Assembly (NCBI GenBank): GCA_002238415.1
Contig: MPMI01000011.1
Location: 1-64,000 of the forward strand
Length of the DNA stretch: 64,000 nt
DNA from: Desulfurellaceae bacterium bin18
Lineage (GTDB): Bacteria; Desulfobacterota; Binatia; Bin18
Reading direction: 5' to 3'
Shown: in pieces, positions 27,048 to 45,652 of the stretch
Layout: each line of letters opens with the position of its first letter
Position numbering within the stretch: position 1 is the stretch's first letter
The notes under the pieces: model-generated
What the model was told of the DNA's origin: nothing
The model's database searches: none
What the model saw: the letters and a program-made list of their open reading frames with translations, nothing else
Program-made: the position numbers and the translations under genes

Positions 27048-27124
27048 AAGAAAGATAGCGACAAAAATATCGACTAGGAGAGTCGATAGCCAATGCGCTG
27101 AGGCCCGAGGTTCCCACACCCAGA

Positions 27125-27158
27125 GCCCGTAAGGACGAAAATCCTTACGGGCTTTTTT
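27125..27158 (+). terminator. leader terminator ahead of exbB
   Basis: GCCCGTAAGGA-CGAAAA-TCCTTACGGGC followed by TTTTTT. It stands between the Fur-like box and the exbB start, so it would stop most transcripts before the genes (attenuator), or it ends a short RNA. Nearly the same stem occurs at 37754-37787 and 43679-43713. Confidence 0.85.
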
Positions 27159-27190
27159 CATGTCTCGGCTTCATCCGCCCGGTACGAGGT

Positions 27191-29605: not shown

Positions 29606-29619
29606 CGCCGGAGTAAGGA

Positions 29620-30228
29620 ATGCGGCACAGGAACACGGACGCACTCAAGTTCAACCCACCCCCGGCATACAGACACCCGCTTGTCACCTGTCTCATTGAT
29701 GTTGCGTTAGCGCTGCCTATTACCCTTGTGGTGTTAGCTCCTCTGACCTCAGCCCAAGAAACTCAGCCCCCCGTCTTCCTGGGTGTGCTGCATATTCAGG
29801 GGCGCGTCGTTGGCACGTCCGACTGTGTCACGTTCCGACACAGCCGGGCTCGCGACAGCTTCTGTGTCAGCCTGCACACCCCCGACTCCAGACTGAGGAA
29901 ACGGTCCGGTCAACGACCTGAAGCGGAGCCTGCCCGTCCGAGCGACTACCCAAACCAGCTTCTGGCACGACTGAGCCAGTACAAAAGCTATCCGCCGGCA
30001 CTCCGCAAAAAGCGACAACAGGGCACCGTGGTGCTGGCGTTTTCCGTTGACCGGAGCGGCGCAGTACTCGCCTCCGACGTTCAAAAAAGTTCGGGCTATC
30101 CTCTGCTGGACCAAGCCGCGCTTGACCTGTTGGTCAAAGCCAGTCCGCTGCCAGCCATGCCGGATTCTATGGCCCGCGAGCGCCTGTATCTCGTGCTGCC
30201 GGTCGAATTCTCCCTGACCACACAATAA
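29620..30228 (+). CDS. second TonB C-terminal-domain protein with short, non-proline linker
   Basis: 202 residues. A hydrophobic N-terminal segment (LVTCLIDVALALPITLVVLAPLT, ending in TSAQ) could be a cleaved signal or an anchor. The middle (VFLGVLHIQGRVVGTSDC) contains two cysteines about 17 residues apart, and there is no proline-rich stretch. The C-terminal domain (YPPALRKKRQQGTVVLAFSV, then SSGYPLLDQAALDLL) is a clear duplicate of the TonB domain of the preceding gene. Without a typical linker or membrane histidine it may be an accessory or receptor-dedicated TonB. It lies between tonB and the siderophore receptor. Confidence 0.75.
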   Translation: MRHRNTDALKFNPPPAYRHPLVTCLIDVALALPITLVVLAPLTSAQETQPPVFLGVLHIQGRVVGTSDCVTFRHSRARDSFCVSLHTPDSRLRKRSGQRPEAEPARPSDYPNQLLARLSQYKSYPPALRKKRQQGTVVLAFSVDRSGAVLASDVQKSSGYPLLDQAALDLLVKASPLPAMPDSMARERLYLVLPVEFSLTTQ

Positions 30229-30257
30229 CAAATGTCCACAAACGAGAGGAGCAAAGG

Positions 30258-32627
30258 ATGAAGCACAGGAAAAAAAGAGCAGACAAGGTGAAAAAGCCAC
30301 CGGAACTGCGCCAATCGTCCTCTTCGACTATTACCAACAATGCGGTCGCCCTGAGCATTTCCGCGGTGATGTTGGGTGGCACAGCCCTGGCCCAGGAGGC
30401 CCAGGACGAGGAAGAGGCCGTCTTGCTGGACAAGGTCCAGATTCAGGATCGTACGATCGATACCAACCCCTATGCCGAGTCCGGCGTGCCGTATAAGGCC
30501 CGCGTCTCGGGTGACCTGCGCCGCCTGGAGGAACTGGCCGACACGCCCCAGACCATGACCGTACTGACCCAGACTCAGATCGAAGATTCGGGTAAATCCG
30601 ACTTGCGTGAGATATTATCCGCTCAGCCCGGTATCACCTTGGGAACGGGTGAAGGCGGCAACGCCTTTGGCGACCGTTATATCATTCGCGGTCACGAAGC
30701 CCGTAGCGACGTGTTCGTAGACGGCATGCGCGACCCCGGCATGACTATCCGCGAGAGCTTCGCCCTGGAACAGGTCGAAATCACCAAAGGTCCCAGCTCG
30801 ACCTTTGCCGGTCGCGGCTCGACGGGTGGGGCCATCAACGGCATCACCAAACAGGCCAGCAGCGAATACGATTTCGTCAAGTTTCAAGGCGGTCTGGGCA
30901 CCGATGAGTATTACCGGGTGCATCTGGACGCCAATAAGCGTTTCACCGATGAACTGGCCGTACGAGCCAACCTGCTGTACGCCAACGAGGAAGTGCCGGA
31001 CCGGGCACCCGCAGAACGCCTGCGCCGCGGCGCGGCGGTGTCCGGCCGATACGACCCCACGGATAATAAGTTCTACCTGTCCTTTGATTATTATTTTCTT
31101 GATGCGGAGGACGACCCTGACCTCGGGACCCAGATTGAACAGTTCGGCGACCCCTTTGATGATATTCCGGTCTACCTGCAAAAGGACCGCGACTTTATCA
31201 AGTCGGAGGTGCATACCTTCACGTTTCGGGGCGGCTATGAGTTCAACGAAAATTTCCGGCTGGAAAGCGCCACCCGCTATGGATTCACGGACAACGGCTA
31301 TGTGCTGACCGGAACCAGCGCCTTCTGGAAGCTGACCGGCACGGATCAGGTGGCGTGGCAGTTGAGCCAGAAAGACGGCTGGCAGGAGGTGGACTATGTT
31401 GCCACCCAACTCAATGCCTTTCTGGACACTGGCCTGAGTTTTACCCAGCACGGTCTGCTCTTGGGTGTGGAGTACTCGGAACATAATGTGCTCAACGGAC
31501 GCTATAATGTCGATCCCAGAGGCACCCCTAACTGCGATGTCGAGGGCGTCTGGCGCGGCACGCTGTACAGCCGCCCCGACAGTTATTGCATGTACGATAA
31601 CAGCGGCAACCTGACCGCCAACCTGAACAGCTTCATGGACCTCGCCATCAGCCGGGGCGATTTCGATTCGGACTACGGCATAGACACGGTGTCGGCCTAT
31701 CTGATGGACACCGTTCACTTTGGCTGGGGCGTGACCGGCTTCTTGGGGGTCCGCATGGACTATTTTGATTACAAAAACACAGTTGTGAGACGCGGCGTCA
31801 GCACCGACTACACTTACTCCGATCACTTCTGGAACGGCCACGCCGGGCTGGTGTATCAGTTCACCGACTGGGGCAATGTGTATTTCACCTATGCCACCTC
31901 CAGCAATATCAACGGTGGGGAGTCGGACCTGGGCGGCAACTGTGGCTACGGCGGGATTTGCGGCACCCCGGCACAGGTTCGCGACAGTAAACCCGAGATG
32001 ACTGAGAATCTGGAGTTGGGCTCGAAATGGAACCTGTTTGATAATAAGTTCCTGGTGACCGCAGCCGCCTTTCAGATCACCAAAGACGATGTGATGGAAA
32101 ACGTGGGCGACGATTACGAGTCCATCGGAACGCTCAACACCGGCAAAAACCGCGTGCGCGGGTTTGAATTCTCGATAGTCGGCAACCTGACTGAGGATCT
32201 GAGCATGGTCGTCAGCGCGGCGATCATGGATTCGGAAGTCCGCGATTCCTACAACAGGGCCAATAAGGGCTTACGCCTGAGCAATTTCGCCAACGAGGGC
32301 GTCTTTGCCCAACTGCGCTACCGCGTCCCTTATCTGCCGGCGCTCTCGGTCGGCGCGGTCGTGACGTATAAGAGCAAGATGTTCACCGGCCAGCCCGATT
32401 CCGCGGCCGGCTATGATACGGAGGCCGGTAAGTATTCGTATAAAGTCCCCAGCTATACGACGCTGGACCTGTTCGCCAACTATAAAATCACCGACCAGAT
32501 CGGGTTGCGCCTGAACGTACTCAACGTCACGGATGAGGACTACTATCTGGCCGGCTATCGCAGTGGCTCGTTCGTCTACATCGGCGACGCACTCAACGCC
32601 CGGCTGGCGCTCACGGCCAGCTTTTAG
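30258..32627 (+). CDS. catecholate-type siderophore receptor (Fiu/PiuA-like)
   Basis: 789-residue TonB-dependent receptor. AGAGGAG precedes the ATG. It has a long basic N terminus, a signal region (ALSISAVMLGGTALAQ), a plug with LADTPQTMTVLTQTQIED, RYIIRGHEARSDVFVDGMRD, ITKGPSSTFAGRGSTGGAIN, and a barrel ending LNARLALTASF. The RDPGMTIRESFALEQVEI pattern is that of Fiu/PiuA receptors for catechol siderophores. The neighbouring PKHD hydroxylase gene is the classical partner (piuA-piuC, fiu-ybiX), which strengthens the call. It is the last receptor of the Fur-controlled exb-ton run. The exact ligand is unknown. Confidence 0.88.
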   Translation: MKHRKKRADKVKKPPELRQSSSSTITNNAVALSISAVMLGGTALAQEAQDEEEAVLLDKVQIQDRTIDTNPYAESGVPYKARVSGDLRRLEELADTPQTMTVLTQTQIEDSGKSDLREILSAQPGITLGTGEGGNAFGDRYIIRGHEARSDVFVDGMRDPGMTIRESFALEQVEITKGPSSTFAGRGSTGGAINGITKQASSEYDFVKFQGGLGTDEYYRVHLDANKRFTDELAVRANLLYANEEVPDRAPAERLRRGAAVSGRYDPTDNKFYLSFDYYFLDAEDDPDLGTQIEQFGDPFDDIPVYLQKDRDFIKSEVHTFTFRGGYEFNENFRLESATRYGFTDNGYVLTGTSAFWKLTGTDQVAWQLSQKDGWQEVDYVATQLNAFLDTGLSFTQHGLLLGVEYSEHNVLNGRYNVDPRGTPNCDVEGVWRGTLYSRPDSYCMYDNSGNLTANLNSFMDLAISRGDFDSDYGIDTVSAYLMDTVHFGWGVTGFLGVRMDYFDYKNTVVRRGVSTDYTYSDHFWNGHAGLVYQFTDWGNVYFTYATSSNINGGESDLGGNCGYGGICGTPAQVRDSKPEMTENLELGSKWNLFDNKFLVTAAAFQITKDDVMENVGDDYESIGTLNTGKNRVRGFEFSIVGNLTEDLSMVVSAAIMDSEVRDSYNRANKGLRLSNFANEGVFAQLRYRVPYLPALSVGAVVTYKSKMFTGQPDSAAGYDTEAGKYSYKVPSYTTLDLFANYKITDQIGLRLNVLNVTDEDYYLAGYRSGSFVYIGDALNARLALTASF

Positions 32628-32635
32628 CGTACACC

Positions 32636-32665
32636 GGAGCGACACCCCGACGGGGGTGTCGCTCC
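32636..32665 (+). terminator. long perfect hairpin after the receptor gene
   Basis: GGAGCGACACCCC and GGGGTGTCGCTCC pair perfectly (13 bp) around a 4-base loop, 8 bases after the receptor stop. No T-run follows. It may reduce read-through into the next two genes or protect the upstream mRNA end. Confidence 0.6.
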
Positions 32666-32704
32666 GCAACTATGACTCCGATTCGCGCCAGTAAGGAGAG
32701 GCGC

Positions 32705-33850
32705 ATGAAGCCCGAAAACAGACCCAAGCTGGACCGCATCCCGCCCGAGTTAGCTGCGGTCTCGGACTACGAGCGGCTGGCGAAGAATTTTGTCCCGCAC
32801 GCCATCTACGAATATATCGCCGGAGGCGTGGCCGATGACCTCAGCCTGAACAAAAACCGCCAGGCGTTTGATCAGATAGAGCTATCCGGGCGGGTGCTGA
32901 CCGATTGCACCCAGGGGACTACGGCGCTGGCGCTGCTCGGTGAGCCCTTCCGTCATCCTGTGCTCTTGGCGCCCGTGGCCTACCATAAACTGGTCCACCC
33001 CAAGGGTGAGGTTGCTACGGCCCAGGCCGCCGATGCCCTGGAAGCCGGGTTTATCGCCAGCACGATGTCCTCGGTATCACTGGAAGATATTGCCGCGGAA
33101 TTGGGCAAGAACAAATGGTTTCAACTGTATTTCCAGACGTCCCGAGACTTGACGCTTTCACTGGTACGACGTGCCGAAAACGCGGGGTATACGGCCCTGG
33201 TCGTCACCGTTGATGCCCCGATCAACGGGTTGCGCAATCGTACCCAACGCGCGGGATTCATCCTTCCCAAGCATGTCCAGGCCGTGAATGTGGCGGATAT
33301 ACCAGTTCCTGACCCGGCACGCCTGACAGCGGATCAGAGTGTGGTGTTCCAGGGGCTCATGGCACATGCGCCAACCTGGGCCGATCTTGAATGGCTGTGT
33401 CGAGCAACCCCGCTACCCATTATCGTCAAAGGCATCCTTCACCCGGACGACGCAGCGCGCGTTACCGCGACGGGACTGGCTGGAGTGGTGGTGTCGAATC
33501 ATGGGGGACGGACGTTGGATGGGCTACCGGCCAGCCTCACAGCCCTGCCGCGTGTCCGGGCAGCGGTCGGCCCTGACTTTTTGGTGTTGCTGGACGGTGG
33601 AATACGCCGCGGAACAGATGTCTTTAAGGCACTTGCTCTGGGAGCCAACGCCGTATTGGTCGGAAGACCACAGGTCTATGCGCTTGCCGTTGCGGGAGCC
33701 TTAGGCGTGGCTCATATGCTGCGCCTCTTGCGAGAGGAACTGGAGGTCACAATGGCATTGACCGGTTGTCCAACGCTTGCAAGTATCGACGCGAACGCCA
33801 TTCGACCAAGTAGCCAAATAGAGAGGAGAGCCAGTATTGATCAGGGGTAG
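32705..33850 (+). CDS. FMN-dependent alpha-hydroxy-acid oxidase/dehydrogenase
   Basis: 381 residues from the ATG at 32705 (AAGGAGAGG upstream; the open frame to 32672 is ignored). TIM-barrel flavoenzyme of the glycolate oxidase/lactate dehydrogenase (LldD) group: YEYIAGGVADDLSLNKNR, APVAYHKLVHPKGEVATA, FQLYFQ, VTVDAPINGLRNR, IIVKGILHPDDA, and the active-site S-N-H-G-G-R followed by LDGGIRRGTDVFKALALGA. It oxidises an L-2-hydroxy acid to a 2-oxo acid. Its place between a siderophore receptor and a 2-oxoglutarate-type hydroxylase is unusual; it might act on a hydroxy-acid carrier or supply a 2-oxo acid, which is inference. Confidence 0.85.
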   Translation: MKPENRPKLDRIPPELAAVSDYERLAKNFVPHAIYEYIAGGVADDLSLNKNRQAFDQIELSGRVLTDCTQGTTALALLGEPFRHPVLLAPVAYHKLVHPKGEVATAQAADALEAGFIASTMSSVSLEDIAAELGKNKWFQLYFQTSRDLTLSLVRRAENAGYTALVVTVDAPINGLRNRTQRAGFILPKHVQAVNVADIPVPDPARLTADQSVVFQGLMAHAPTWADLEWLCRATPLPIIVKGILHPDDAARVTATGLAGVVVSNHGGRTLDGLPASLTALPRVRAAVGPDFLVLLDGGIRRGTDVFKALALGANAVLVGRPQVYALAVAGALGVAHMLRLLREELEVTMALTGCPTLASIDANAIRPSSQIERRASIDQG

Positions 33851-33859
33851 GCATACGCC

Positions 33860-34543
33860 ATGCTCATTTCCATAGACAGTGTCCTGAGCAAAGACTTGGT
33901 CGGCCAATTTCGGGAAACCCTGCGTCAGGCCCGGTGGCTCAACGGCAAACGCACGGCCGGCACGCAGGCGAGCAGCGTCAAAGTGAACCAGCAGCTTGAC
34001 GATCAGTCCAAACCGGCAGCCGGACTCCGCCAGCAGCTATTGACACCCCTGGGACAACACCAGCTTTTTCTCTCCGCGGCCCTCCCCCACAAGATACTCC
34101 CCCCGACATTCAGCCGCTACTGTGCGGGGCATCGCTATGGGGCGCATAGAGACAATCCGATCATGCCGACGGGCGGCGCCGACCGGATGCTGCGGACCGA
34201 CTTGTCGGCTACGATATTTCTGAGTGAACCTGACGAGTACGACGGTGGGGCGCTCACCATTGAGACCACCTACGGCACCCGGGAGATCAAGCTCGGTGCC
34301 GGCGACCTGATTCTCTATCCCTCCGGCAGCCAGCACCGTGTCACTCCGGTGACACACGGAACCAGGCTCTGTGCGCTTCTCTGGATACAGAGCATGGTCC
34401 GTGACAACCACCAGCGGCTGTTGTTGTTTGATCTGGACCAGAGCATCCAGGCGCTGACGCGGAAACAGGGCGGTGAAGATACGGAAGTGCAACGGTTGAC
34501 CGGCGTGTATCACAACCTGGTCAGACTGTGGGCCGAAGTGTAA
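33860..34543 (+). CDS. piuC: PKHD-type Fe(II)/2-oxoglutarate hydroxylase (PiuC/YbiX family)
   Basis: 227 residues, the family's usual length. The N-terminal part is KVNQQLDDQSKPA...LPHKILPPTFSRY. The iron ligands are in YGAHRDNPIM (H-x-D) and YPSGSQHRVTPVTHGTR (distal H, with R for 2-oxoglutarate). The C terminus SMVRDNHQRLLLFDLDQSIQAL is typical. In other bacteria it is paired with Fiu/PiuA receptors and probably alters catechol siderophores or related ligands. It starts 9 bases after the oxidase gene and is probably in the same transcript. Confidence 0.92.
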   Translation: MLISIDSVLSKDLVGQFRETLRQARWLNGKRTAGTQASSVKVNQQLDDQSKPAAGLRQQLLTPLGQHQLFLSAALPHKILPPTFSRYCAGHRYGAHRDNPIMPTGGADRMLRTDLSATIFLSEPDEYDGGALTIETTYGTREIKLGAGDLILYPSGSQHRVTPVTHGTRLCALLWIQSMVRDNHQRLLLFDLDQSIQALTRKQGGEDTEVQRLTGVYHNLVRLWAEV

Positions 34544-34563
34544 CCGGACCGTATCGTCCACAC

Positions 34564-35388
34564 TTACTTTTCAGGCTTTTTCACGACCAGAAAGATTGCG
34601 CTGATGTGGTCCTGGTATTGTCCAAAGACCCGGCGCATGGCCAGCACGCGCCGCCGGGCCGGGGCCTGAAGACAGATGTTCTTGACCAGCCTCAGAGCAC
34701 CCCAGATGCCCTCATCCTGGATCAGGCGTCGGGGCCCCAGCAAACGCATCGGTGCATAGCCGCTATACTCGACCTGGAAGCCTACCGTCTCCAGCAGTTC
34801 CCGCCATTCTGCGCTGGGCAGCGGCCGGGCTCCAACGTGCAAAACCGAGGACAGGCTGGAGTAAACCTCGTCGCGCTTGGCCGAGGAGATATCATCGGGG
34901 ACGAGGCATAACTCGTGGATACCGTAGCGACCGCCGGGCCGCAGTAAGCGGAATGCCTCGGCAATAATGCGTCGCTTGTGCTCCTGGGTATTCATGGTCA
35001 GCATGGCTTCGCCGAGCACGACCGAGGCGGAGGCATCCGGCAGTTCGGTCCGGTCGGCCGCACCGACCACAACTGAGACACCGGGCTGAGGCGGCAGGTG
35101 GCGGCGGGTCCATTGGGCGGCCTGTGCGTCGCGTTCAACCCCGGTATAGCTGTGCGGGGTGTTCTCCAGGATCATGCGCGCCGTACCGCCGAGGCCGGGG
35201 GCGAATTCGACCACATCATCGGCCGGACCGATGGCCAGACTGTCGAGCAGCGCCCGGGTAGCCCACAGCCCGCCCGGACGCAGCACCCGTTTACCCAGCC
35301 GGGCCAGCAGCCAGTGGGCCGGCATTTTCGAGACATCCAGGTCCGTACCCGGCAGCACGTTGGGTTCCTGAGATTCACGAGAAGACAT
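34564..35388 (-). CDS. class I SAM-dependent methyltransferase linked to an iron receptor
   Basis: 274 residues. The SAM-binding motif VVEFAPGLGGTARMIL (about residues 60-75) is followed by YTGVERDAQAAQW (acidic loop), VVVGAADRTELPDASASVVL and LRPGGRYGIHELCLVPDDI. The C-terminal cap is helical and basic. It follows the receptor gene by 24 bases on the same strand, so it is co-transcribed from the Fur-type promoter at 37823. Similar methyltransferases occur beside siderophore or metallophore receptors; the substrate cannot be read from sequence. Confidence 0.82.
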   Translation of the reverse strand: MSSRESQEPNVLPGTDLDVSKMPAHWLLARLGKRVLRPGGLWATRALLDSLAIGPADDVVEFAPGLGGTARMILENTPHSYTGVERDAQAAQWTRRHLPPQPGVSVVVGAADRTELPDASASVVLGEAMLTMNTQEHKRRIIAEAFRLLRPGGRYGIHELCLVPDDISSAKRDEVYSSLSSVLHVGARPLPSAEWRELLETVGFQVEYSGYAPMRLLGPRRLIQDEGIWGALRLVKNICLQAPARRRVLAMRRVFGQYQDHISAIFLVVKKPEK

Positions 35389-35412
35389 ATAGATTCCTCC
35401 TCAGATACTGTG

Positions 35413-37731
35413 TCAAAACTGTACTTTCAGGCCAGCGTAGAAAGTCCGCCCGTCACCCGGCAGAAAGGCTGCCTGATCGGGCCGAGCTCGGTCGACGATA
35501 AGGGTCGAAGAGGCATACGTCTCATCGACTATGTTCTGTATTTCACCGTAAATGCTGAGATATTCATTAAGATCGTAGTTGGCCCGCACGGCCAAGGTCA
35601 CAAACGATTCGGAGACCAAAGTGTTCAGATTGTCCACCGGGGTGCTGTCGGGACGCGAGTAAACCTCTGTCTGTACAAACAAGTTAGGCAGGAAGTCATA
35701 CTGTAGGACGGCATTAAGGCTATGCGGTGGAGCACCGGCCAAGTCGTTATTGCTACGGGCCGGGTCTCCGTCAAAGCGAAAATCCTGAAAGGTGTAGGCA
35801 AGCCGGCCGCTGAGTTTGTCGGTCAGCTGTACTCCGAGTCCAAACTCAACACCTAAATGGGTTGTTTTGTTGGCATTCACAGCACCGAGTGGTGCACCAG
35901 TCACGTCACGCAGACTCAGCAGCTCATTCCTCACCCAGGAATAGTAGGCCAGTGCGTCCCAAGTCATTCTTCCGTATCTACCGCGCCAGCCGGCTTCGAC
36001 TGTTGTCGCCCGCTGGGCTTTGAGACGAGAGGTATGGAAGGCGGCTGCGGGGAGAGCTGGATTGCCGGGGTTCGGTCGGCCAGGGCTACTATGGGGCGTA
36101 CCGTTCACGGTGGCGATCAGGTCATCATAAGTCGGGGGCTCAAAGCTACGGCTGACCGCGGCAAAGAAGGTGTGGTTTTCGGTCGGTTGAATTGTCAGAC
36201 CTAGGCTCGGACTCCAACCAGAATAGGTCTGCGCATAGCTGGTATTACCGGCTTGCACCGCACCGTTTGGCAATGGCTGATTCGAATTGGCTGGATGAAA
36301 CGCAATGGTTGGACGCATTCCCGCCTCAAAGGTATCATCATTGTCGCGTTCCGCTCGTGCAAAGGCAATGGAGGGCGAAACCGTGAAAACAGCGCCAACC
36401 GGAATATTCAGTCCGGCATACAGAGAGAGCGTGTTGGCATCGAGTTCGCTTCGGCCAAACAGTAGCCCCTTCCTGCCGGCGTTGTTGGTAAAATTTCTTC
36501 GGTCGGCCCAACCAACGACATATTTTGCGGTGGCATCGAACAGGGGTAACGGTTGGGAGGCATTAGGATTGTAGGCGTAGCGTAGGACGGAGCTGAAGTC
36601 TCCCCCTACCGTCTCACGAATACCGGCGGGGATTGGAAACCGAAAAGCGTCATCCGTATACGCGTAACCAAAAGCTCCATCAACAAGGTGATTCCCGAAA
36701 GAGATCGTTGTCCGGTTACCGAGACGAAATTGATCGAGTTCGCGTTGGGGTTGGTCGCGCTTAACGTTCGGCCCAGGGTTGGACACCAGAAACGGGGGTG
36801 GAGGGTTCGGATTAGGGCGGACTGTGGGGCCGGTGGAGACACGTTTTGGATGCCGCTTAAGCTGTCGCTTGGTCAGCGGACCTACAACATCAAAACCCAG
36901 GTCAGTATAACCGATAAAGAGGCGGCTGGAGATAGCGTCGGTCAACTCAGCACCGATATTAGCGTCTACTCTCAGCCGGTCGGACTCATTGTAATCACGA
37001 AATCCGTCCCGGCGACTGAAGCTAATCTGAGCGAGACCGTCGAAGTCGCCTCGTCGTGCACCAGCTTGAGCGGAGGTTGATACCTGTCCAAAGCTTCCAC
37101 CTTCTACTCTGCCAGTAATGCCAGGTGCCGACGAACCGGTTGGCGAGACGAAATTGAGCGCACCACCGAGAACGGTGGCTCCGAGTCGGTTCGCCGTGTA
37201 GCCACGGTACACCTCAATAAACTGGGCCTGTCTCGGATCAGCCAAGCCCACAATGTATGAGCCGTCAGCCCGATTGATCGGCAGCCCGTTTTGCAGCACC
37301 AGGACACCACGCTCAACCGGATTTTGCTGTAAGCCAGACCCACGAATCTGGATACGAGGTTGGTCGTTGCCGCCAAAGAAGTTTTGTACAATCACTCCTG
37401 GCACTGAGACGAGGGCATCAGAGAGTGTCACGTTTGTCTTACCCGTTAGGTCACTATCGGCAACGAGTCCGGTCCCGCCGGGAATCGATTCAAGCTTATC
37501 GCGGGCAAGTGCTTCTGCATTCGCTCCAGGTCGGCCTGTCACGACGAGTGTATCGAGGACGACAATCGAACCTGGCGTCGCCGATTGAGCGAATGCGGCA
37601 TTGGGCAGGAGAATAACGATCAGAGCCACCATAATACCAGTCAGTATCCCATTGAGTGAAACAATTCGGCGTACCATAAAACCTTTTACGGCCTCACCTG
37701 CCCTATTCATCATGCTCGGAATCCTCCTCAC
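35413..37731 (-). CDS. TonB-dependent receptor of the second iron operon (FecA/YncD-like)
   Basis: 772 residues (a later start at MVRRIVSLNG is possible). The signal peptide ends AAFAQS. A plug carries DTLVVTGRPGANAEALARDK as TonB box, then TNVTLSDALVSVPGVIVQ, QPRIQIRGSGLQQNPVERGV and LGATVLGGALNFVSPTG. The barrel ends RTFYAGLKVQF. An extracellular loop holds a proline-rich PNPNPPPPF stretch. The plug resembles FecA/YncD-type receptors for ferric citrate or metal chelates. It is preceded by two Fur-like boxes, a leader and an intrinsic terminator, and is followed by a methyltransferase gene. Confidence 0.9.
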   Translation of the reverse strand: MRRIPSMMNRAGEAVKGFMVRRIVSLNGILTGIMVALIVILLPNAAFAQSATPGSIVVLDTLVVTGRPGANAEALARDKLESIPGGTGLVADSDLTGKTNVTLSDALVSVPGVIVQNFFGGNDQPRIQIRGSGLQQNPVERGVLVLQNGLPINRADGSYIVGLADPRQAQFIEVYRGYTANRLGATVLGGALNFVSPTGSSAPGITGRVEGGSFGQVSTSAQAGARRGDFDGLAQISFSRRDGFRDYNESDRLRVDANIGAELTDAISSRLFIGYTDLGFDVVGPLTKRQLKRHPKRVSTGPTVRPNPNPPPPFLVSNPGPNVKRDQPQRELDQFRLGNRTTISFGNHLVDGAFGYAYTDDAFRFPIPAGIRETVGGDFSSVLRYAYNPNASQPLPLFDATAKYVVGWADRRNFTNNAGRKGLLFGRSELDANTLSLYAGLNIPVGAVFTVSPSIAFARAERDNDDTFEAGMRPTIAFHPANSNQPLPNGAVQAGNTSYAQTYSGWSPSLGLTIQPTENHTFFAAVSRSFEPPTYDDLIATVNGTPHSSPGRPNPGNPALPAAAFHTSRLKAQRATTVEAGWRGRYGRMTWDALAYYSWVRNELLSLRDVTGAPLGAVNANKTTHLGVEFGLGVQLTDKLSGRLAYTFQDFRFDGDPARSNNDLAGAPPHSLNAVLQYDFLPNLFVQTEVYSRPDSTPVDNLNTLVSESFVTLAVRANYDLNEYLSIYGEIQNIVDETYASSTLIVDRARPDQAAFLPGDGRTFYAGLKVQF

Positions 37732-37753
37732 TTCATTCGTCCATCAACGAATA

Positions 37754-37787
37754 TAAAAAAACCCGTAAGGAGTTTGCTCCTTACGGG
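37754..37787 (-). terminator. leader terminator ahead of the second iron operon
   Basis: Read on the minus strand: GCCCGTAAGGAG-CAAA-CTCCTTACGGGT then TTTTTTT. It stands between the Fur-like box and the receptor start codon (37731). Confidence 0.85.
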
Positions 37788-37822
37788 CTCTGAGCTTGGT
37801 AGCGGCTGGCCTCTTTACTGAC

Positions 37823-37849
37823 AAATGAAATTGAATATCAATTTCAATT
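37823..37849 (-). promoter_or_regulatory. Fur-like operator of the receptor-methyltransferase operon
   Basis: TGAAATTGAATATCAATTTC with its flanks is an almost perfect palindrome. On the minus strand TTGACC and TATATA lie just upstream, so the box covers the start of transcription. Confidence 0.78.
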
Positions 37850-37896
37850 AAAGTCCTATATAATTCCGGTGAACGGGTCAAGCAGGAAAAAAGGAC

Positions 37897-37958
37897 TTGA
37901 CAAATGTCGTCCTGGGAGCTACAAAATACATAATTGAAATTGATATTCAATTTCAATA
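37897..37958 (+). promoter_or_regulatory. rightward Fur-type promoter without a gene
   Basis: TTGACA (37897-37902), 17 bases, TACAAA (37920-37925), then a second Fur-like palindrome (TTGAAATTGATATTCAATTT and flanks, 37932-37958). It points rightward into 37960-38166, which holds no credible gene and only the convergent end of hmuV. The gap contains GCAAGG...CCTTGC and GGGCC...GGCCC hairpins. A small iron-regulated RNA is a possible product. Confidence 0.55.
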
Positions 37959-38166
37959 GAACCTACACCGGGCTTACGGCTCTTGCCTCGTGCTCGCAGA
38001 AATCGCCGTTGCTGCGGGCAGTATGCGTGCAGGGCCGAACACAGGCCGCAGGTTCGTCTTCCCTCTGCAAGGTTTTTGGTGTTGGGCCTTGCATCGGCCC
38101 CGGGGTTCCCTCCGATTGCCCCGGGGCTTCTCCCCTCTTACCACGATCTATGCGCTCCGTTGTTCA

Positions 38167-38979
38167 CTACGACACCGTTGGCGCACCACCCGGCATTGTG
38201 TCGCCAAACACTGCCTGTGCGGGCACCTCGAATACGGTGGCGATATTGCGGGGTGTCAGCACCTCGCGAATCATGCCTGACGCAACCACCCTGCCGTCTT
38301 GCATGAGTACGCCCCGGTCGGCGTACTGCATGGCTAGGTTCAGGTCGTGCAGGATGAGGCAGACCGCCATACTCCGTTCTTGTGCTATCCGACGCGTCAG
38401 CCGCAGTATCTGATGCTGATGTTTCAAGTCCAAGGCTGTGGTCGGTTCATCAAGGAAAAGATAGGCGTGCTGCCGGTCCCACATCTGAGCCAGCACGCGC
38501 GCCAGGTGGACGCGCTGCTGCTCCCCGCCCGATAGGGTCGGGAAGATGCGCTGTTGCAGATGCCAGGCGTCTACGTTTTCCAGCACCTCCCGTATCACGA
38601 CAGCGTCGCTGCCGGTCGCCTGACTGCCAATATAGGGGCTGCGCCCCATCATTACGATTTCCAGTACCGAAAAGGGAAAGTTGACAAAGCTGGCTTGGGA
38701 CAAGACCGCCCGTTTTCTGGAAAGCGTAGCAAGTGAATAGGCATCCAGCGGCGTGCCGTCCAGCACGATGCGGCCGGCCTCCGGTTGCAGCGCTCCGGTC
38801 AGACATTTGAGCAGGGTGGATTTTCCCGCTCCGTTCGGCCCCAGAATGGCCGTGACGGTTCCCGGTGTGATGCTCAGCCGCACGTCGTCCAGAATGACCG
38901 TGGCCCCGACCCGGTAGCAGACGTTTGTCGCCTCGATCACAGGCCGAACCTCCCGGCGTATTGCTTGACGAGCAGCCAC
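38167..38979 (-). CDS. hmuV: heme ABC transporter ATPase
   Basis: 270 residues. Walker A GPNGAGKSTLLKCLTG, signature LSGGEQQRVHLARVLAQMW, Walker B YLFLDEPTTALD, and switch His in CLILHDLNLAMQYADR. The length and the GRSPYIG...VLENVDAWHLQQR segment fit HmuV. It energises the permease encoded just upstream, whose 3' end it overlaps by 43 bases. It is the last gene of the heme operon. Confidence 0.92.
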   Translation of the reverse strand: MAARQAIRREVRPVIEATNVCYRVGATVILDDVRLSITPGTVTAILGPNGAGKSTLLKCLTGALQPEAGRIVLDGTPLDAYSLATLSRKRAVLSQASFVNFPFSVLEIVMMGRSPYIGSQATGSDAVVIREVLENVDAWHLQQRIFPTLSGGEQQRVHLARVLAQMWDRQHAYLFLDEPTTALDLKHQHQILRLTRRIAQERSMAVCLILHDLNLAMQYADRGVLMQDGRVVASGMIREVLTPRNIATVFEVPAQAVFGDTMPGGAPTVS

Positions 38980-39974
38980 AAAAAGAAGGGCCCGCCGATC
39001 AGACTGGTCAGGATGCCCACCGGCATTTCGGCCGGGGCGACAATGGTGCGGGCCAGGGTGTCGGCCACCAGCAGCAGGGTCGCACCCAGCAGGGCGGAGG
39101 CCGGAATCAACAGGCGGTGGTCCGGCCCGATGGTGAGGCGGATCATATGCGGCACGACCAAGCCCACGAAGCCGATGATCCCGCTCGTTGCCACGGCAGC
39201 GCCGACCGCAAGGGCGACACAGATGGTCACGCTGCGTTTCAGGTGTTCGCTATTGATGCCGAGATAGCGCGCTTCGTCCTCGCCGAGCAGCAGGATATTC
39301 AGTTTTTGGGCATTCCGAATCAGCAGCAGCGTCGCCGGCAGGACGAGCGTGGCGGCTACGCTGAGCGTAGGCCAGAGCGCCGCGCCGAGGCTGCCCATGG
39401 TCCAGAATGTCAGGGCACGCAACTGGGTATCGTCGCTCAGATAGGTCAGGAAGCCGGTTCCGGCCCCGCTCAGCGCGTTGATGGCAATCCCGGCCAGTAA
39501 CATATAGGTGACGGAAAAGGTTTCCATTTGTCGGGCAAGACGAAAAATCAACAGGCAGGCCAGCAGCCCGCCGATAAAGGCGGCGACACTCAACCCGTAT
39601 AAGCCCAGCGTGCCCGTCAGCGGGCCGGCCCAGACGATCATGATCGCAACGGCCAGCGCCGCACCGCTGGCAATGCCGATCAGGCCGGGGTCGGCCAGCG
39701 GATTGCGGAACAAGCCCTGCAGGGCCGCGCCGGAAACGGCCAGGGCCGCGCCGACAACGCTGGCCAGCAGCACGCGCGGCAGCCGGATGGAGAAGAGGAC
39801 GGCTTCCTGCTGGGTATTCAGACTGCCGTCGAACAGCGAAACGACCGGCACGGACACCGCGCCTATGCATGCGGCCGTGAAGGCAGTCAGGATGAATACC
39901 CCGCCCAGTAGCGCCAGCACGGTCACCCGCAGCCGCAGGAAGGGCAATACCACTGGTTTCGCCGCCCTGTTCAC
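38937..39974 (-). CDS. hmuU: heme ABC transporter permease (FecCD family)
   Basis: 345 residues with about ten membrane helices. FecCD hallmarks: SIRLPRVLLASVVGAALAVS, GAALQGLFRNPLADPGLIGI, LLAGIAINALSGAG, WTMGSLG, LGINSEHLKRS and GFVGLVVPHMIRLTIGPDHR. It forms the inner-membrane channel for heme with HmuV and receives it from HmuT. It overlaps hmuT by four bases. Confidence 0.93.
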   Translation of the reverse strand: MNRAAKPVVLPFLRLRVTVLALLGGVFILTAFTAACIGAVSVPVVSLFDGSLNTQQEAVLFSIRLPRVLLASVVGAALAVSGAALQGLFRNPLADPGLIGIASGAALAVAIMIVWAGPLTGTLGLYGLSVAAFIGGLLACLLIFRLARQMETFSVTYMLLAGIAINALSGAGTGFLTYLSDDTQLRALTFWTMGSLGAALWPTLSVAATLVLPATLLLIRNAQKLNILLLGEDEARYLGINSEHLKRSVTICVALAVGAAVATSGIIGFVGLVVPHMIRLTIGPDHRLLIPASALLGATLLLVADTLARTIVAPAEMPVGILTSLIGGPFFLWLLVKQYAGRFGL

Positions 39975-40822
39975 AAGCCCTGATACGCCTCGTGCAGCGT
40001 GGCCGCGGCTTGTGTGGTACGCGGGCCAAACCCCAGCAACAGCAGGGCATCCATCACGATCAGGCTACCGGTCCTGGCGGCCGGCGTGAGGGACAGCCCC
40101 GGAGCGGTCAGCAGGGCGTCCTTGCCGCCGGCCTGTGCAAGCCCTCGGGCCGTGGTGAGAATCACGTCCGGCTGCAAAGCGGCCGCAGCCTCCGGAGTGA
40201 GGGGTTTATAGCCGGCATATCCGGTGACGGCGTTTCGCGCACCCGAGAGTCTGATGATGCTGTCCACAGCGGTCTCTCGGCCGGCCGCCATCGGCGCCCC
40301 GCCGCCATGCTGAAGAATGAAAAGCACCCGTTTATCAGTCGGTTGTCGGGCCGTTACTTTTGCCAGTTCGGCAGTCTGGCGGTCAATGGCATCAATCAGG
40401 GCGCTGCCCGCTCGGTCCTTTTTCAGGGCTCTGGCAATCACCCGGATGGCGTCCCGTACATCCGCCAGCGAACGGCCGGCTCTCAGTTGCAGGATCGGAA
40501 TATTGGCCGCTTGCAGCTGTGCCAACACGGCCGGCGGTCCGGCCTCTTCGGTCAGAATCACGAGGTCGGGATACAGCGAGACAATCCCCTCCGCGGACAG
40601 GGCGCGTTGATAGCCGACCTTGGGCAAATGTTCGGCTTCCGGCGGATAATAACTGGTGGTATCGTTGCCAACCAGTATCTCCTGCGCTTCCAGCGCGTAG
40701 ACGATTTCCGTCAGGGCTCCGCCAATGGTGACAATGCGGCGCGGCGCCTCGGCAGCGGCCGGCAATGCAAAAAAGACCAGCCCCCAGGCCAGAATGAGAC
40801 GCCGACCGATGTCCGCTACCAT
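39971..40822 (-). CDS. hmuT: periplasmic heme-binding protein
   Basis: 283 residues. The signal peptide ends FFALPAAAEA. Cluster A-2 type binding-protein fold: RRIVTIGGALTEIVYALEA, EILVGNDTTSYYPPEAEHLP, KVGYQRALSAEGIVSLYPDL, LQHGGGAPMAAGRETAVDSI, and AGYKPLTPEAAAALQPDVIL. A tyrosine in GYQRALSAEG is in the position of the usual heme ligand of HmuT/PhuT proteins. It overlaps the receptor stop by seven bases, so receptor and transporter are translated as one unit. Confidence 0.9.
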   Translation of the reverse strand: MVADIGRRLILAWGLVFFALPAAAEAPRRIVTIGGALTEIVYALEAQEILVGNDTTSYYPPEAEHLPKVGYQRALSAEGIVSLYPDLVILTEEAGPPAVLAQLQAANIPILQLRAGRSLADVRDAIRVIARALKKDRAGSALIDAIDRQTAELAKVTARQPTDKRVLFILQHGGGAPMAAGRETAVDSIIRLSGARNAVTGYAGYKPLTPEAAAALQPDVILTTARGLAQAGGKDALLTAPGLSLTPAARTGSLIVMDALLLLGFGPRTTQAAATLHEAYQGL

Positions 40823-43032
40823 TGGTACGACACCCGAGTGACAAAGCTGCGACCTTCTTCCAGCAAGCTAGCGAAGCGTTTGGTGTATGCTTTATCCGCG
40901 ATATTCTCGATTCCGAAGTCCACGCTTATCGCTCCCAATCCTTGGCCGTCCGGCGTCCAGTGCTGATGCGGGGTCCAACGAAAATAGAGGTCGTGCACGC
41001 CATAACCGTCGGTCGGCACGTCGTTGTCACCCACACGGTCATTTCTCTCGGCAAACCGGCCACGCCAGCCGACCACGCCGTTGAGTGCGTCTATCCGAAA
41101 CTCGACCCCTGCAACAACCGTCAGCGGCACATTGTTGAGCAGGTATTCGCCAGTATCGTCGTTCTTGGCTTTGACGTAGGACAGCCCCAGTCGAGCGGTG
41201 AACAGGTCCAGTTCGTAGCGGCCCTCTGCTTCCCAGCCCATCAGGTCGGCGTCCGGGATGTTCAGGATTTTCGTCGTTCCGGCCCGGACATCGACTTCTG
41301 GGGTAATGAAGTCGTCTCCCTCGCTGGTGAACCATGACCCTTTCACGGTCACGCGGTCGTTCGCCGCCAGGATACTCTCGAAGTTCAGCCCCGCCCCCAC
41401 CTCAATCGTGGTGACGGTTTCCGGCTGCAAATCCGGATTCGGCACGAAGCGGTTGTCCGGGGCAAAAAAGGTGGGGGCGAGCACCGGGCTGCCATCGGGC
41501 CTGAGCACCGGCACCTGCACCGGGCGGCCATCAGGGCCGAGCACCGGGCGACCGTCCGGACCGATTTCCGGTCTGGTCAACGGCCCGAACTCAATAGGAA
41601 ACCCGCCCGGAAAATGCAGGCCGGCCGGATACAGCTCCGTCAGATTGGGAGCTCGGAACGCTTGAGCCCAGCTTCCGAACAGCATGAGGTTCTCAATCGG
41701 CTTGTAGCTCAGCGACACTTTTGGCGACACTTCGTGTTCGTTCTGCGAGTTCCCGATTTCGTCGTCGCTCTCGTAATGGTCGAAGCGCAGGGCCGGAATG
41801 AACAGCACCTCACCGATAGGGGTGTGGAGGGCGACTTCATCCTGCACATACAAGCCCAGCGTCAGGGCCTCAGCATCCGGTACGCCGCCCCGCTTTCCAT
41901 CAGGGGTGGCCGAACTCTTGCCGACTTGGTCGTCCGTGTAGATTTCAAATCCGTACGAGAACGTATGTCCGTGCATACCGCTCACCGCCCATCTGGTCTG
42001 GTTGTCGATGGTAAAGCCGAGCGTGTCCATCTCCCGCGTCTGTACCCGACCGACGAGCCGGCCGGTCACGTCTTCTTCCTCCACCTCGGTGTCGTTGTAA
42101 TACAGGTGGAGTTTCGGACTCAACCAGCGATTGGCCGGATTATCGAATACGTAGCGCAGGCTGAACTGGTTATCCTGCACTTCCTTATCCACAATAATGT
42201 TGGACAACGCCGAGCTGGCACTGGCGCCATTATTGGGTTCCTGCCCGTCATTATTGAACACCTGGGCCTGAAACTTGAGCATGTGGAAGTCCTTCAGGGT
42301 GTAGCCGGCTTTGAACAGGCCGGACAGCAGGCGGTCGTCCGTATCCAGCTCGTTGCCGTTGCCCTGCTCGATATCACCCGAATCGCGAAAGGAGAAATTG
42401 GCCAGGACATCCCAGCCACGGTAACGGCCAAACCCCGTCAGGCTCGGAGCGTATTCAGCGCTCGCGTTGCGATAGCCGAAAGAAGCCAGGGCACCCACGC
42501 TCTGGCCTGGGGCCAGCAGGTCCGCAGCATCCTTTGTTTCAAAGGCCACTACGCCACCAATGCCGCCCCCACCATATATGGCCGAGGACGCGCCTTTGAC
42601 CACTTCGATCGACTTCAGCAGCGAGGGGTCAACATAGAAACGGCCGTCATGCCCGGACTCGAAATTCTGGCGGCGACCATCCATGAGCGTGATGATCGCC
42701 TCATCGTCAAAACCGCGGATGGAGATCGTCTGTCCGTTCCGCCGCGGGCCGTTGTCCACTTCTACGCCCGGTGTGAATTCCAGCAGGTCCGCCACGTCAC
42801 CGGCCAGGGCGTTGCCTGGGGCATCCGTCTCTACCTGGGAGACGAGCGCCGGGACATCAAAAGTCGGTTGCGGGCTGCGGGTGGCGTAAGAGGATATCGT
42901 GATCTTATCCAGCAATGTGGGCGATTCCTCGTCTTGCGCCTGCGCGACGGGGCCGACGCTGGTCCATAGCAAACAGCCACAAAAGAGTGCTGCCGCTCCT
43001 TTGGCAATCAGTCTTGGGCGTTGAACTGCCAC
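40816..43032 (-). CDS. hmuR: TonB-dependent heme/hemoglobin receptor
   Basis: 738 residues. The signal peptide ends GPVAQAQDEE. The plug contains LDKITISSYATRSPQPTFDV, DLLEFTPGVEVDNGPRRNGQ, ISIRGFDDEAIITLMDGRR and VVKGASSAIYGGGGIGG. The barrel holds the FRAPNLTELYPAGLHFPGG box and NPDLQPETVTTIEVG, which mark heme/hemoglobin receptors, and ends RSFVTRVSYQW. Between these lies an insertion with the repeated unit GPDGRPV/RPDGSPV. It leads the four-gene heme operon behind the PepSY gene. Confidence 0.9.
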   Translation of the reverse strand: MAVQRPRLIAKGAAALFCGCLLWTSVGPVAQAQDEESPTLLDKITISSYATRSPQPTFDVPALVSQVETDAPGNALAGDVADLLEFTPGVEVDNGPRRNGQTISIRGFDDEAIITLMDGRRQNFESGHDGRFYVDPSLLKSIEVVKGASSAIYGGGGIGGVVAFETKDAADLLAPGQSVGALASFGYRNASAEYAPSLTGFGRYRGWDVLANFSFRDSGDIEQGNGNELDTDDRLLSGLFKAGYTLKDFHMLKFQAQVFNNDGQEPNNGASASSALSNIIVDKEVQDNQFSLRYVFDNPANRWLSPKLHLYYNDTEVEEEDVTGRLVGRVQTREMDTLGFTIDNQTRWAVSGMHGHTFSYGFEIYTDDQVGKSSATPDGKRGGVPDAEALTLGLYVQDEVALHTPIGEVLFIPALRFDHYESDDEIGNSQNEHEVSPKVSLSYKPIENLMLFGSWAQAFRAPNLTELYPAGLHFPGGFPIEFGPLTRPEIGPDGRPVLGPDGRPVQVPVLRPDGSPVLAPTFFAPDNRFVPNPDLQPETVTTIEVGAGLNFESILAANDRVTVKGSWFTSEGDDFITPEVDVRAGTTKILNIPDADLMGWEAEGRYELDLFTARLGLSYVKAKNDDTGEYLLNNVPLTVVAGVEFRIDALNGVVGWRGRFAERNDRVGDNDVPTDGYGVHDLYFRWTPHQHWTPDGQGLGAISVDFGIENIADKAYTKRFASLLEEGRSFVTRVSYQW

Positions 43033-43114
43033 GTATTCTCTCCTTACCCGGTTTCGCGCCTCAAATAGGTGCCACTCCCCAGTCCGTCACGAACCAGCCC
43101 AACCCCTGATCCGC

Positions 43115-43654
43115 CTATACGACAAAGCCCAGAATCAGGAAGGCGGTCAGACCAACGATACCGGTGGCAATGGTTCTGGCCCGCAACCCCGGACTAGACA
43201 GCCCAAGCCACAACCCACTGAAGACAATGAACAATACGCCACTCGCCAGAATCTTCTGGAAATCCTTGAACCACAACGGCCCGTGCCCCTTGTGGAGTTC
43301 GATCAGGCGTTTTTGCAGGTTCGGTACATTACGCTTTATTGCTACCGAGTCATCGGCGACCGAAATCTCATAGTGAAGACGCGAGGTCGGACGGGTATAC
43401 AGCGTATTCCCGCTCTTCTTCACGTATTCAAAGTCGTGCGTAATACCGATATCGCGCAGCAGAGCCCGTACGTCAGCCTCAAGAGAATCGGAGGCCGGAT
43501 GAACGACAACACCGGCGGGCACGGTCACCGGGGTGCTGGTCACTGTCCCTTTGATGCCAACTAGGTAGAGTCCACCGGAAATGGCTACGAACAACAGCGG
43601 CGGCGCTAAAAACGCCGCCGCGTACAGATGCAGGCTGATCCAGAAGTTGCGCAT
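43115..43654 (-). CDS. PepSY-type membrane protein of the heme operon
   Basis: 179 residues: an N-terminal helix (LHLYAAAFLAPPLLFVAISG), a periplasmic domain of about 90 residues (DVRALLRDIGITHDFEYVKK), an LIELHKGHGPLWFKDFQK segment and two further helices near the C terminus. Short PepSY proteins of this type often accompany heme or siderophore uptake and are thought to handle electrons or iron reduction, with the histidines (LHLY, ELHKGHG) as candidate heme ligands. First gene after the Fur-controlled promoter at 43748; the receptor gene follows after 82 bases. Confidence 0.8.
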   Translation of the reverse strand: MRNFWISLHLYAAAFLAPPLLFVAISGGLYLVGIKGTVTSTPVTVPAGVVVHPASDSLEADVRALLRDIGITHDFEYVKKSGNTLYTRPTSRLHYEISVADDSVAIKRNVPNLQKRLIELHKGHGPLWFKDFQKILASGVLFIVFSGLWLGLSSPGLRARTIATGIVGLTAFLILGFVV

Positions 43655-43678
43655 GATGACACGACGGACGGGAAAAAC

Positions 43679-43713
43679 AAAAAAAGCCCGTAAGGAGTAT
43701 TCTCCTTACGGGC
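43679..43713 (-). terminator. leader terminator ahead of the heme operon
   Basis: Minus strand: GCCCGTAAGGAG-AATA-CTCCTTACGGGC followed by TTTTTTT, 25 bases before the PepSY start codon. Confidence 0.85.
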
Positions 43714-43747
43714 TCTGAGCTTGGTAGCGGCTGGCCTCTTTACTGAC

Positions 43748-43774
43748 AAATGATTTTGAAATTCAATTTCAATA
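43748..43774 (-). promoter_or_regulatory. Fur-like operator of the heme operon
   Basis: AATGATTTTGAAATTCAATT plus TCAATAG, a near-palindrome. On the minus strand TTGACT and TATATC precede it. The leader that follows is almost identical to that of the second iron operon. Confidence 0.75.
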
Positions 43775-43858
43775 GGAAGATATACAACCTTTGTCGGTCA
43801 GTCAATCCGGTGCGGCGGAACAGATCTGCGTGAAACCCCCTCGCCCGACGAGAGCGTT

Positions 43859-45652
43859 TTACATCGCGTCCTTGCGAATCAACCCCTTCAGGTCGTCTTC
43901 CCAGGGCGGGAGTTCAAAGCCGGCCGGGACTTCAACCAGATGGAGCCGGTGATTGCCCTTTGGTCCGGTGCCTTCACTGATATCAATGATGCGGAGTTGG
44001 TCCGCAAAACCATCAGCCTGAAGGCGCTTCCACTCTTCTTCCCAGAGCAGGATGAAATAGCTGGTCTTCGGGGTTGTGGGCGGGAAATAAAAGGGGATGC
44101 GCCGGTCAGCATAATACAGGGCACCGCTGTCAAAGCTCCGGAAAAAGAAGAGGGGCTGTTCCCCCACCTGCTCGACAATGCGGCCCATAAAGGGCCGAAA
44201 GGTCCGCGCGGCGGCAAGAGTGGGCTGAATCACGTGGTTGATGAGTAGGAAGATGCTCGTCGTAAACACCACCAGTCCGCCAAACACACGGTCCCAGGCC
44301 TGGCGTCGCAGACCCCAGACTAACAAGACCATTGCGCTCCCAACGCCTAAAAACCAGCTGGCAAACGCGCCGGGATGGCCGGCAACAATACCCGTGAATA
44401 AGGGCAGATTGCTCTGGTCTTTCGGGTGCAGAAACGGCCGGATCAGACCGAGCGGATCAAACCCGCTGGCGTGAGCGATCACCCCGATCATAGCCAGACC
44501 GATCACCCCACAGCAGACAGCGCCGGCGGTCTTCAGCAACGCGAGAAAGCCGGGGGGCAGGTCGATCTCTCCTCGACGGAGTTCCTGCCACCAGGCTCCC
44601 AGCAGCAGGGCAATGGCCGGATAGATGGGCAGGATGTACACCGTGCGCTTACTGCTTGAAGCCGAATAGAACAGAAAAATCGTGACGATCCAGACAATCA
44701 GATAGGTAAAATTCTTCTCGGCCCAATCCTGCCGGCATCGGTATAAAAAATAGAGCAGCGGCAGAAAGAAAAAGCTCCATGGAGCCATGCCCAGAAACAG
44801 ATTAGGGATGAAATAATAGAAAGGGTGGACGTGCCCGGCGCCTGCCGACCCGCTCGACACAAAGCGCAGCACATTTTCTTTCATGATCTGCTTCTCAAAA
44901 AACGCCTCGCCGCCGTGCCACAGGGCCAGCGCGTACCACGATCCGGCGATGAGGAGAAACAGCAAACCGCCGGTGACGAGATGCAAGCGACGGACAAACA
45001 GCAGGTCACGTTTGACGCACAAGAAGACGCCGATGACCAGACCCGGCAGCACCGCGCCGATGGGTCCTTTGGCCAGGGTGGCCAGACCGAGCAGGCAGAA
45101 GAAACCGAGCGCCTCGCCCCAGCCCACGCGTTGCTCGCGATATATGGACCAAAAGGAGAAAAAAGCCGCGACCATAAAAAAGGTCAGCGTCATATCCACT
45201 CGGGCCGTTGTCGCAGCCCGGACCCACTCAAAGCTGGTGGCCAGGGTCAGACCGGCAATCAGCCCAGCCTCAACACCCCACAGGACGGCGCCGACCCGAT
45301 AGGTCAGGAGCACACCGATGAGGGCCAGTAGCGCGGAAGGCAAGCGAATCGAGAACTCGCTCAACTGACCCAAGACGAGCGCAGCCAGCGTTCCAAGCCA
45401 GTGAAAGAGCGGAGGTTTTGACGGAATAATGTGGCCGTTGCGCAAGGGCAGAATCCAGTCACCGTTGTGATAGATCTCCCAGATAACGGTCGCCTCGCGC
45501 GGTTGTCCCTTGGTGTAAAAAGGGATGTCACCCAGGCCCCAGATGAATATCAGGCCGCAGAAGAGGCTGAGAAACACGCCAAAGAAGAGAACGTGGGATT
45601 GCAACAGCTTCTCCTCGACAGTCCGAACGGCACGCACCAGGCGGCTGTTCAC
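43859..45652 (-). CDS. ArnT-like glycosyltransferase (GT39/GT83 superfamily), second of a pair
   Basis: 597 residues, inner-membrane polytopic enzyme with about 11-12 helices. The N-terminal periplasmic loop IPFYTKGQPREATVIWEI and RNGHIIPSKPPLFHWLG carries the catalytic acidic residue typical of lipid-linked sugar transferases. A C-terminal periplasmic domain follows (about residues 470-597). It probably moves a sugar from an undecaprenyl carrier to lipid A or another envelope lipid. It overlaps the paralogous gene upstream (ATGA). A fragment of its 3' end is also found at 25573-25632. Confidence 0.85.
   Translation of the reverse strand: MNSRLVRAVRTVEEKLLQSHVLFFGVFLSLFCGLIFIWGLGDIPFYTKGQPREATVIWEIYHNGDWILPLRNGHIIPSKPPLFHWLGTLAALVLGQLSEFSIRLPSALLALIGVLLTYRVGAVLWGVEAGLIAGLTLATSFEWVRAATTARVDMTLTFFMVAAFFSFWSIYREQRVGWGEALGFFCLLGLATLAKGPIGAVLPGLVIGVFLCVKRDLLFVRRLHLVTGGLLFLLIAGSWYALALWHGGEAFFEKQIMKENVLRFVSSGSAGAGHVHPFYYFIPNLFLGMAPWSFFFLPLLYFLYRCRQDWAEKNFTYLIVWIVTIFLFYSASSSKRTVYILPIYPAIALLLGAWWQELRRGEIDLPPGFLALLKTAGAVCCGVIGLAMIGVIAHASGFDPLGLIRPFLHPKDQSNLPLFTGIVAGHPGAFASWFLGVGSAMVLLVWGLRRQAWDRVFGGLVVFTTSIFLLINHVIQPTLAAARTFRPFMGRIVEQVGEQPLFFFRSFDSGALYYADRRIPFYFPPTTPKTSYFILLWEEEWKRLQADGFADQLRIIDISEGTGPKGNHRLHLVEVPAGFELPPWEDDLKGLIRKDAM

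Follow-up and report, generated by a model that had tools for sequence, protein, structure and literature searches.

We find that a 30-nt RNA hairpin in the leaders of iron-uptake operons, together with a cellular relative of the phage Mu protein Com, very probably forms a protein-operated RNA switch for iron uptake that was previously unrecognised, as judged from comparison of sequences. The element, its covariation, the strand that it shares with an intrinsic terminator, and its association with com-like genes and Fur boxes are observed directly. The element is a real, deeply conserved RNA element, is very likely the site of the Com-like RNA-binding protein, and travels with this iron-controlled Mu Com relative in about six bacterial phyla.

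The window (the whole 64-kb stretch of DNA analysed) contains three Fur-box/leader/terminator units, all at the positions where the initial annotation had placed three units of the same design before iron-uptake genes. On the coding strand, each unit has a Fur-like palindrome followed by a 34-78-nt leader, a hairpin with 13-15 pairs and a T-run, after which come the ribosome site and the start codon; the stem and T-run are thus present as described, with a stem longer than the perfect 11-12 bp reported. The Fur-like palindromes stand: TGAAATTGATATTCAATTTCA is matched perfectly at 37826 and with 1-2 mismatches at 27024 and 43751, and a reversed-pattern control gives 1 match in the genome. The promoter ascribed to each unit is plausible, yet promoter-like hexamers are not above chance (6 found vs. 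6.0 expected in shuffles). The likely start codons lie only ~24-41 nt past the hairpin region in all three units, so that there is little space for a second promoter.

The units were scored with two covariance models: R1, a model of element plus terminator, and R2, a model of the core made from Binatia sequences only to avoid circularity. Unit 1 (27024-27158, plus strand) comprises a Fur-like box at 27024-27044 with 1 mismatch to TGAAANTGANATTCANTTTCA, a Com-type RNA element (candidate antiterminator hairpin) at 27098-27128 (R2, 36.2 bits, E 1.1e-5; R1, 71 bits), and an intrinsic terminator at 27121-27155 with a 14-pair stem and a T-run, where AGAGCCC is common to element and terminator as alternative folds. 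Unit 1 precedes, on the same strand, exbB (ExbB/TolQ; 27191-27883, likely start 27200 by ribosome site; PF01618, 1.8e-28), two exbD genes (27880-28727; PF02472), two tonB genes (28724-30228, as 28724-29605 and 29620-30228; PF03544), and a TonB-dependent receptor gene (30258-32627; PF00593, PF07715). Unit 2 (37846-37754, minus strand) comprises a perfect Fur-like box at 37826-37846, an element at 37785-37815 (R2, 37.6 bits, E 5.7e-6; R1, 69.5 bits), and an overlapping terminator at 37758-37791 with a 15-pair stem, and precedes genes, also on the minus strand, for a TonB-dependent receptor (35413-37731, likely start 37713, ribosome site 6/6; PF00593, 1.4e-36) and a methyltransferase (34564-35388; PF13649/PF08241). 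Unit 3 (43771-43679, minus strand) comprises a Fur-like box with 2 mismatches at 43751-43771, an element at 43710-43740 (R2, 37.6 bits; R1, 74.3 bits), and an overlapping terminator at 43683-43716 with a 15-pair stem. It precedes minus-strand genes for a 179-aa protein without a Pfam match (43115-43654, an open reading frame with its start set by the ribosome site), a TonB-dependent receptor (40816-43032; PF00593, 2.4e-51), and a periplasmic binding protein, FecCD permease and ABC ATPase (38167-40822; PF01497, PF01032, PF00005). Two further observations concern unit 2 and its surroundings: a relative of the methyltransferase gene has its own element in another genome (G008, L081:887), and a second perfect Fur box (37898-37955, plus strand), with TTGACA-N17-TACAAA, points away from the receptor into a gene-free stretch on the strand opposite the end of the ABC operon.

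The three window hairpins are among the strongest terminator-like sites of positions 26500-44500, and the three leaders fold with z = -4.6 to -5.9. The window has exactly three copies of the terminator sequence CAGAGCCCGTAAGGA, and the 5.24 Mb genome has no other exact copy; if up to 3 mismatches are allowed, the window gives 8 matches vs. 1.6 expected. No exact copy was found in other genomes, which rules out the terminator sequence as the conserved part. Among relatives, the upper terminator stem varies freely and GAGCCC is kept. The conserved leader that had been proposed does recur before iron genes in relatives, but its conserved part is an overlapping GGCC...GAGCCC hairpin and not CAGAGCCCGTAAGGA.

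Alignment of the Fur-box hairpins defines, 5' of the terminator, a block consisting of GGCCAG, a 3-bp mini-stem, and then CAGAGCCC, within which AGAGCCC is the terminator foot. The conserved unit is a 30-nt hairpin, GAGGCCAG-GGY-loop-RCC-CAGAGCCC, that overlaps the 5' foot of the terminator and has two 3-bp stems around a 4x4 internal loop (GGC-CAGM-GGY-loop-RCC-CAGA-GCC). Across 60 core sequences and 6 pairs, 98.9% of cells are paired (8-63% in slid controls), both stems show compensatory change, and 4 of the 6 pairs are changed on both sides; some core columns of this alignment (the runs GGCC and GAGCC) are fixed by the search pattern itself and are to be read with care, whereas columns 13-14 with 22-23 and the 6/30 pair, which show the exchanges, are not jointly fixed by it. 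The outer stem has a G-C to A-U exchange in three loci (L238, L241, L276), the inner stem has a U-A/C-G exchange, and among the genomes of the family the terminator and the mini-stem each show compensatory change.

The initial annotation had suggested a covariance model and a search of related genomes, and had held that an absence of compensatory changes and of conservation in relatives would speak against a new element. R1 finds strong copies in most genomes of the family and in further families of the class, and both compensatory changes and leader copies before iron genes are present. Across the phylum, R1 matches at 22-39 bits resemble ordinary terminators, and R1 was dropped there for the specific R2, which has matches in 3 of the 297 phylum genomes: two within the class and 1 among the ~285 outside it. 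No Rfam 15 family matches the element above its gathering threshold, and a relaxed threshold gives chance matches only. A literature search on cellular Com-like regulators and Fur-linked attenuators, covering few subscription journals, found nothing relevant.

In further families of the class, the element lies directly 3' of a short gene that encodes CxCG..LLAR....GVELKCRRCKR. In the window's genome, this com-like gene is on a contig other than the window's (C4:44122-44325, minus strand), and a Fur box lies at the start of the gene. The product is a four-cysteine zinc ribbon in which the core L-L...E-[LI]-[KR]-C-x-R-C-K-R is found in the alignment and the first knuckle is CxCG, not CxxC; its AlphaFold model has a mean pLDDT of 66. 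Two PHROGs families, gpCom (phrog_13819) and 'translational regulator', each match 14 of 16 com-like members (phrog_13819 at E up to 1, best 2.5e-5), and profile alignment with Mu Com by hhalign gives a probability of 93.1%, E 3.2e-7, and 47% identity over 30 ribbon residues (CRC-PCGSLLARQH-ADGIELKCRRCKRVVII vs. IRCKNCNKLLFKADSFDHIEIRCPRCKRHIIM). The Pfam Com model PF10122 is not reached (1 of 16 members, weakly, E 0.028), and we therefore name the protein a Com-like relative and not a PF10122 member.

Mu Com is an activator whose binding site is a hairpin 5' of mom and which opens an inhibitory structure; SELEX with a Com zinc finger yielded GAG(N)2CC twice, flanking a variable stem of 3-4 nt, with CC(N)2-3GAG in the hairpin loop as bound motif (PMC6483171). 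In our set, CC(N)2-3GAG is present in 45 of 60 core sequences vs. 7.8 in shuffles; it is absent from the other 15, among them window units 2 and 3, where GAG(N)CC occurs twice in its place. The com-like frame continues through the element towards the next gene in five loci (L238, L241, L256, L276, L293), where com-like and target may be translationally coupled. The com and mom genes of Mu are translationally coupled. To our knowledge, the Com described so far is a phage protein whose one target is mom and which acts by activation of translation, not by antitermination.

A scan of named genomes with the com-like alignment gives 80 loci, which span Candidatus Binatia (the window's own group), Myxococcota, Rokubacteria, Nitrospirota, Chloroflexota, Elusimicrobia, and Acidobacteria. 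A loose element pattern is found 3' of com-like at 44 of 67 loci vs. 4.5 in shuffles. Applied to 58 loci chosen as non-Binatia (551 kb), R2 gives 50 matches at E<=1, of which 42, in 42 loci and including Myxococcus xanthus, are at most 300 nt downstream of com-like and on its strand; the nominal P is 1.5e-66, a value that overstates independence, since several loci are near relatives (e.g. Corallococcus near-copies). Some test loci labelled Deltaproteobacteria may still be Binatia; certain non-Binatia are Myxococcus, Corallococcus, Pyxidicoccus, Anaeromyxobacter, Rokubacteria, Dehalococcoidia, Elusimicrobia, and Thermodesulfovibrionia. Within the class (148 genomes), R2 detects the element in 39 genomes and com-like is found in 46, with com-like in 37 of the 39 element carriers (Fisher 6.6e-24); the element is not detected in 9 com-like genomes, and com-like is not detected in 2 element genomes (G413 and G401). 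Hairpins matched by R1 before greA-like genes in two genomes lacking a com-like gene (G407/G424) were not counted. Such similar hairpins, AGAGCCTC...GAGGTTTT, lie directly 5' of the greA-like genes (L188:3467-3530 and L189:2572-2636, both minus strand) in two genera without detected com-like.

A Fur-box-like 19-mer (score >=13/19) lies upstream of com-like at 33 of 67 loci vs. 0.8 expected, and Fur boxes of the same type are present in 16 of 16 genomes of the family, several of them followed by hairpins with other upper-stem sequences. The window's genome has element sites at exbBD-tonB, at two TonB receptor operons, at a small-ORF operon that adjoins genes for imelysin and di-haem peroxidase, and, beside feoB, in an intergenic region. 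In M. xanthus, a Fur-like box is followed by com-like, then the element, then a TonB-dependent receptor-like protein (recognised by sequence, not by Pfam scan), and at many other loci the gene 3' of the element encodes a coiled-coil, outer-membrane-type protein of ~450 aa, with no Pfam match in the one scanned.

Beside feoB, no start codon follows element and terminator (L044:5598-5900, corresponding to C4:35597, plus strand, of the window's genome; also L066, L068, L070, L073, L075); two conserved hairpins come next, one of which has ATCCCTCCTAC as its C-rich loop, and are possibly a small RNA made by Com-dependent read-through. A recurrent protein of ~70 aa (TARICPQGHVYLQVGHTCLSFRTEHFVDLAQV type) is encoded beside Com elements (L044:13337-13101, minus; L084:5294; L082:9724; L271:6390; L178:4606, minus; L184:703, minus). 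Weak, recurrent element-like matches are oriented away from a Fur box that precedes a conserved gene (L045:2888-2917, plus; G001:C110:4036, G002:C22:72686, G003:C100:2260, G004:C8:70477, G006:C1:3496337).

GAGCCC is both the 3' strand of the element and the terminator foot, and the element fold and the terminator are therefore mutually exclusive. In folding calculations, the nascent leaders of units 2 and 3 form the two-stem small hairpin (-5.6 kcal/mol), as do 5 of 6 isolated cores; in full leaders, with the 3' arm made, the terminator is preferred by 4.4-9.6 kcal/mol, which would be the cost that the Com-like protein has to pay to hold the element. Many relatives carry the element without any terminator, at a distance of 19-81 nt (median 37) from the start codon that follows. 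In some of these loci GAGCCC may pair with the start region, overall without significance (combined p 0.06), and a general start-sequestering hairpin in terminator-less copies is kept as a suggestion only.

According to the model that we consider probable, a Fur-controlled Com-like protein binds the leader hairpin, blocks the overlapping terminator, and lets iron operons be read. With iron sufficient, Fur would shut the iron promoters as well as the com-like gene, which has a Fur box of its own; when iron is short, the iron operons and com-like would both be transcribed. Without Com-like protein, GAGCCC would pair with GGGCUUU and transcription would end ahead of the first gene. With Com-like protein, GGC...GCC would close the small hairpin, the terminator foot beside the U-run could not form, and polymerase would enter the operon: only the upper terminator stem would be left, parted from the U-run by the opened foot, and this stem should not terminate, so that a protein holding the element would act as an antiterminator. 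We infer Com-like binding, antitermination as the direction of effect, and feed-forward logic, in which the whole would operate as an AND-type gate. In lineages without the terminator, where the element is ~37 nt 5' of the start codon, control would probably be translational, as in phage Mu com/mom. We regard as doubtful a bolder version in which the zinc ribbon is itself a metal sensor, zinc or iron loading deciding its hold on the antiterminator hairpin, and in which the switch, spread over ~six phyla, plugs into terminators or start-codon structures.

The sign of the effect could be the opposite: Com-like binding might favour termination or block translation, limiting the iron genes or autoregulating its own operon. 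Association and overlap would be equal for either sign, but the GAGCCC strand is common to both folds, so that holding the element should disrupt the terminator, and Mu Com is an activator (PMC6483171); we consider this sign unlikely. A reading in which DNA or other targets are what Com-like acts on, and conservation of the element is due to a different RNA-binding factor, is improbable. DNA binding is also a property of zinc ribbons in general, and Com-like binding to the element is deduced from sequence; however, the covariation of the element is that of an RNA, its copies downstream of com-like are on one strand, and it holds motifs close to the Com SELEX motif.

The initial annotation had offered two roles for the RNA, an attenuator or riboswitch deciding read-through, or a short regulatory RNA as the main product of each promoter. 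Recurrence, compensatory changes and differing terminators support a new element and an attenuator. A riboswitch for a small molecule or metal ion is very improbable: leader position and mutually exclusive folds would suit one, but the element is only 30 nt with two 3-bp stems, tracks the Com-like gene and not one metabolic pathway, and has no Rfam match. Short iron-controlled RNAs ending at the terminator, with read-through incidental, would be consistent with the strong terminators and with the copy at C4:35597, which has two conserved hairpins and no start codon right after it; most copies, however, lie a few tens of bases 5' of a start codon with a ribosome site, many lack the terminator, and the element is linked to a protein gene, and we give this reading little credence. 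The attenuator guess was right in kind, wrong on the conserved part, and silent on the regulator, the GGCC hairpin and the com-like gene outside the window both being absent from that annotation. We conclude that the units in this window most likely gate Fur-controlled iron operons by antitermination.

Three known systems come closest to the proposed switch. Mu Com/mom (PF10122, phrog_13819; PMC6483171) likewise has a small zinc-ribbon protein, the gene order com then target, and, as RNA site, a short hairpin with GAG and CC motifs 5' of the start codon and beside an inhibitory structure. It differs in that the system here is chromosomal and Fur-linked, has iron-uptake and outer-membrane genes as targets, has several sites per genome, most in trans, uses a 30-nt two-stem element with a 4x4 internal loop, and, in Binatia, has a transcription terminator as the inhibitory structure; nor is the Pfam Com model reached. 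The RAT sites of BglG, LicT and SacY are weak hairpins that overlap the 5' arm of an intrinsic terminator and are held by protein. The window leaders have the same antiterminator layout, with GAGCCC shared and alternative folds excluding each other, and with a protein proposed to hold the weak hairpin; membership in the BglG/LicT-RAT class is rejected, since a zinc ribbon takes the place of the CAT-RBD/PRD protein; there is also no sugar phosphotransferase link, and the element sequence is unrelated. Fur-regulated small RNAs (RyhB, PrrF, NrrF, IsaR1) are likewise short terminated transcripts whose promoter carries a Fur box, but the element here is directly 5' of iron-uptake genes, tied to a protein gene, and often without a terminator. 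A free-standing Fur-regulated small RNA has no coding gene directly downstream on the same strand, whereas the three window copies end 24-41 nt 5' of start codons.

If the switch operates as proposed, Com relatives would be widespread cellular regulators with a defined RNA site, under Fur, before genes for TonB receptors, porin-like proteins, and ExbB/TonB. An RNA layer would be added to iron control in several phyla, with a new RNA family supported by covariation, and the com-like/TonB-receptor operon of Myxococcus xanthus would provide a tractable genetic case for RNA recognition by Com.
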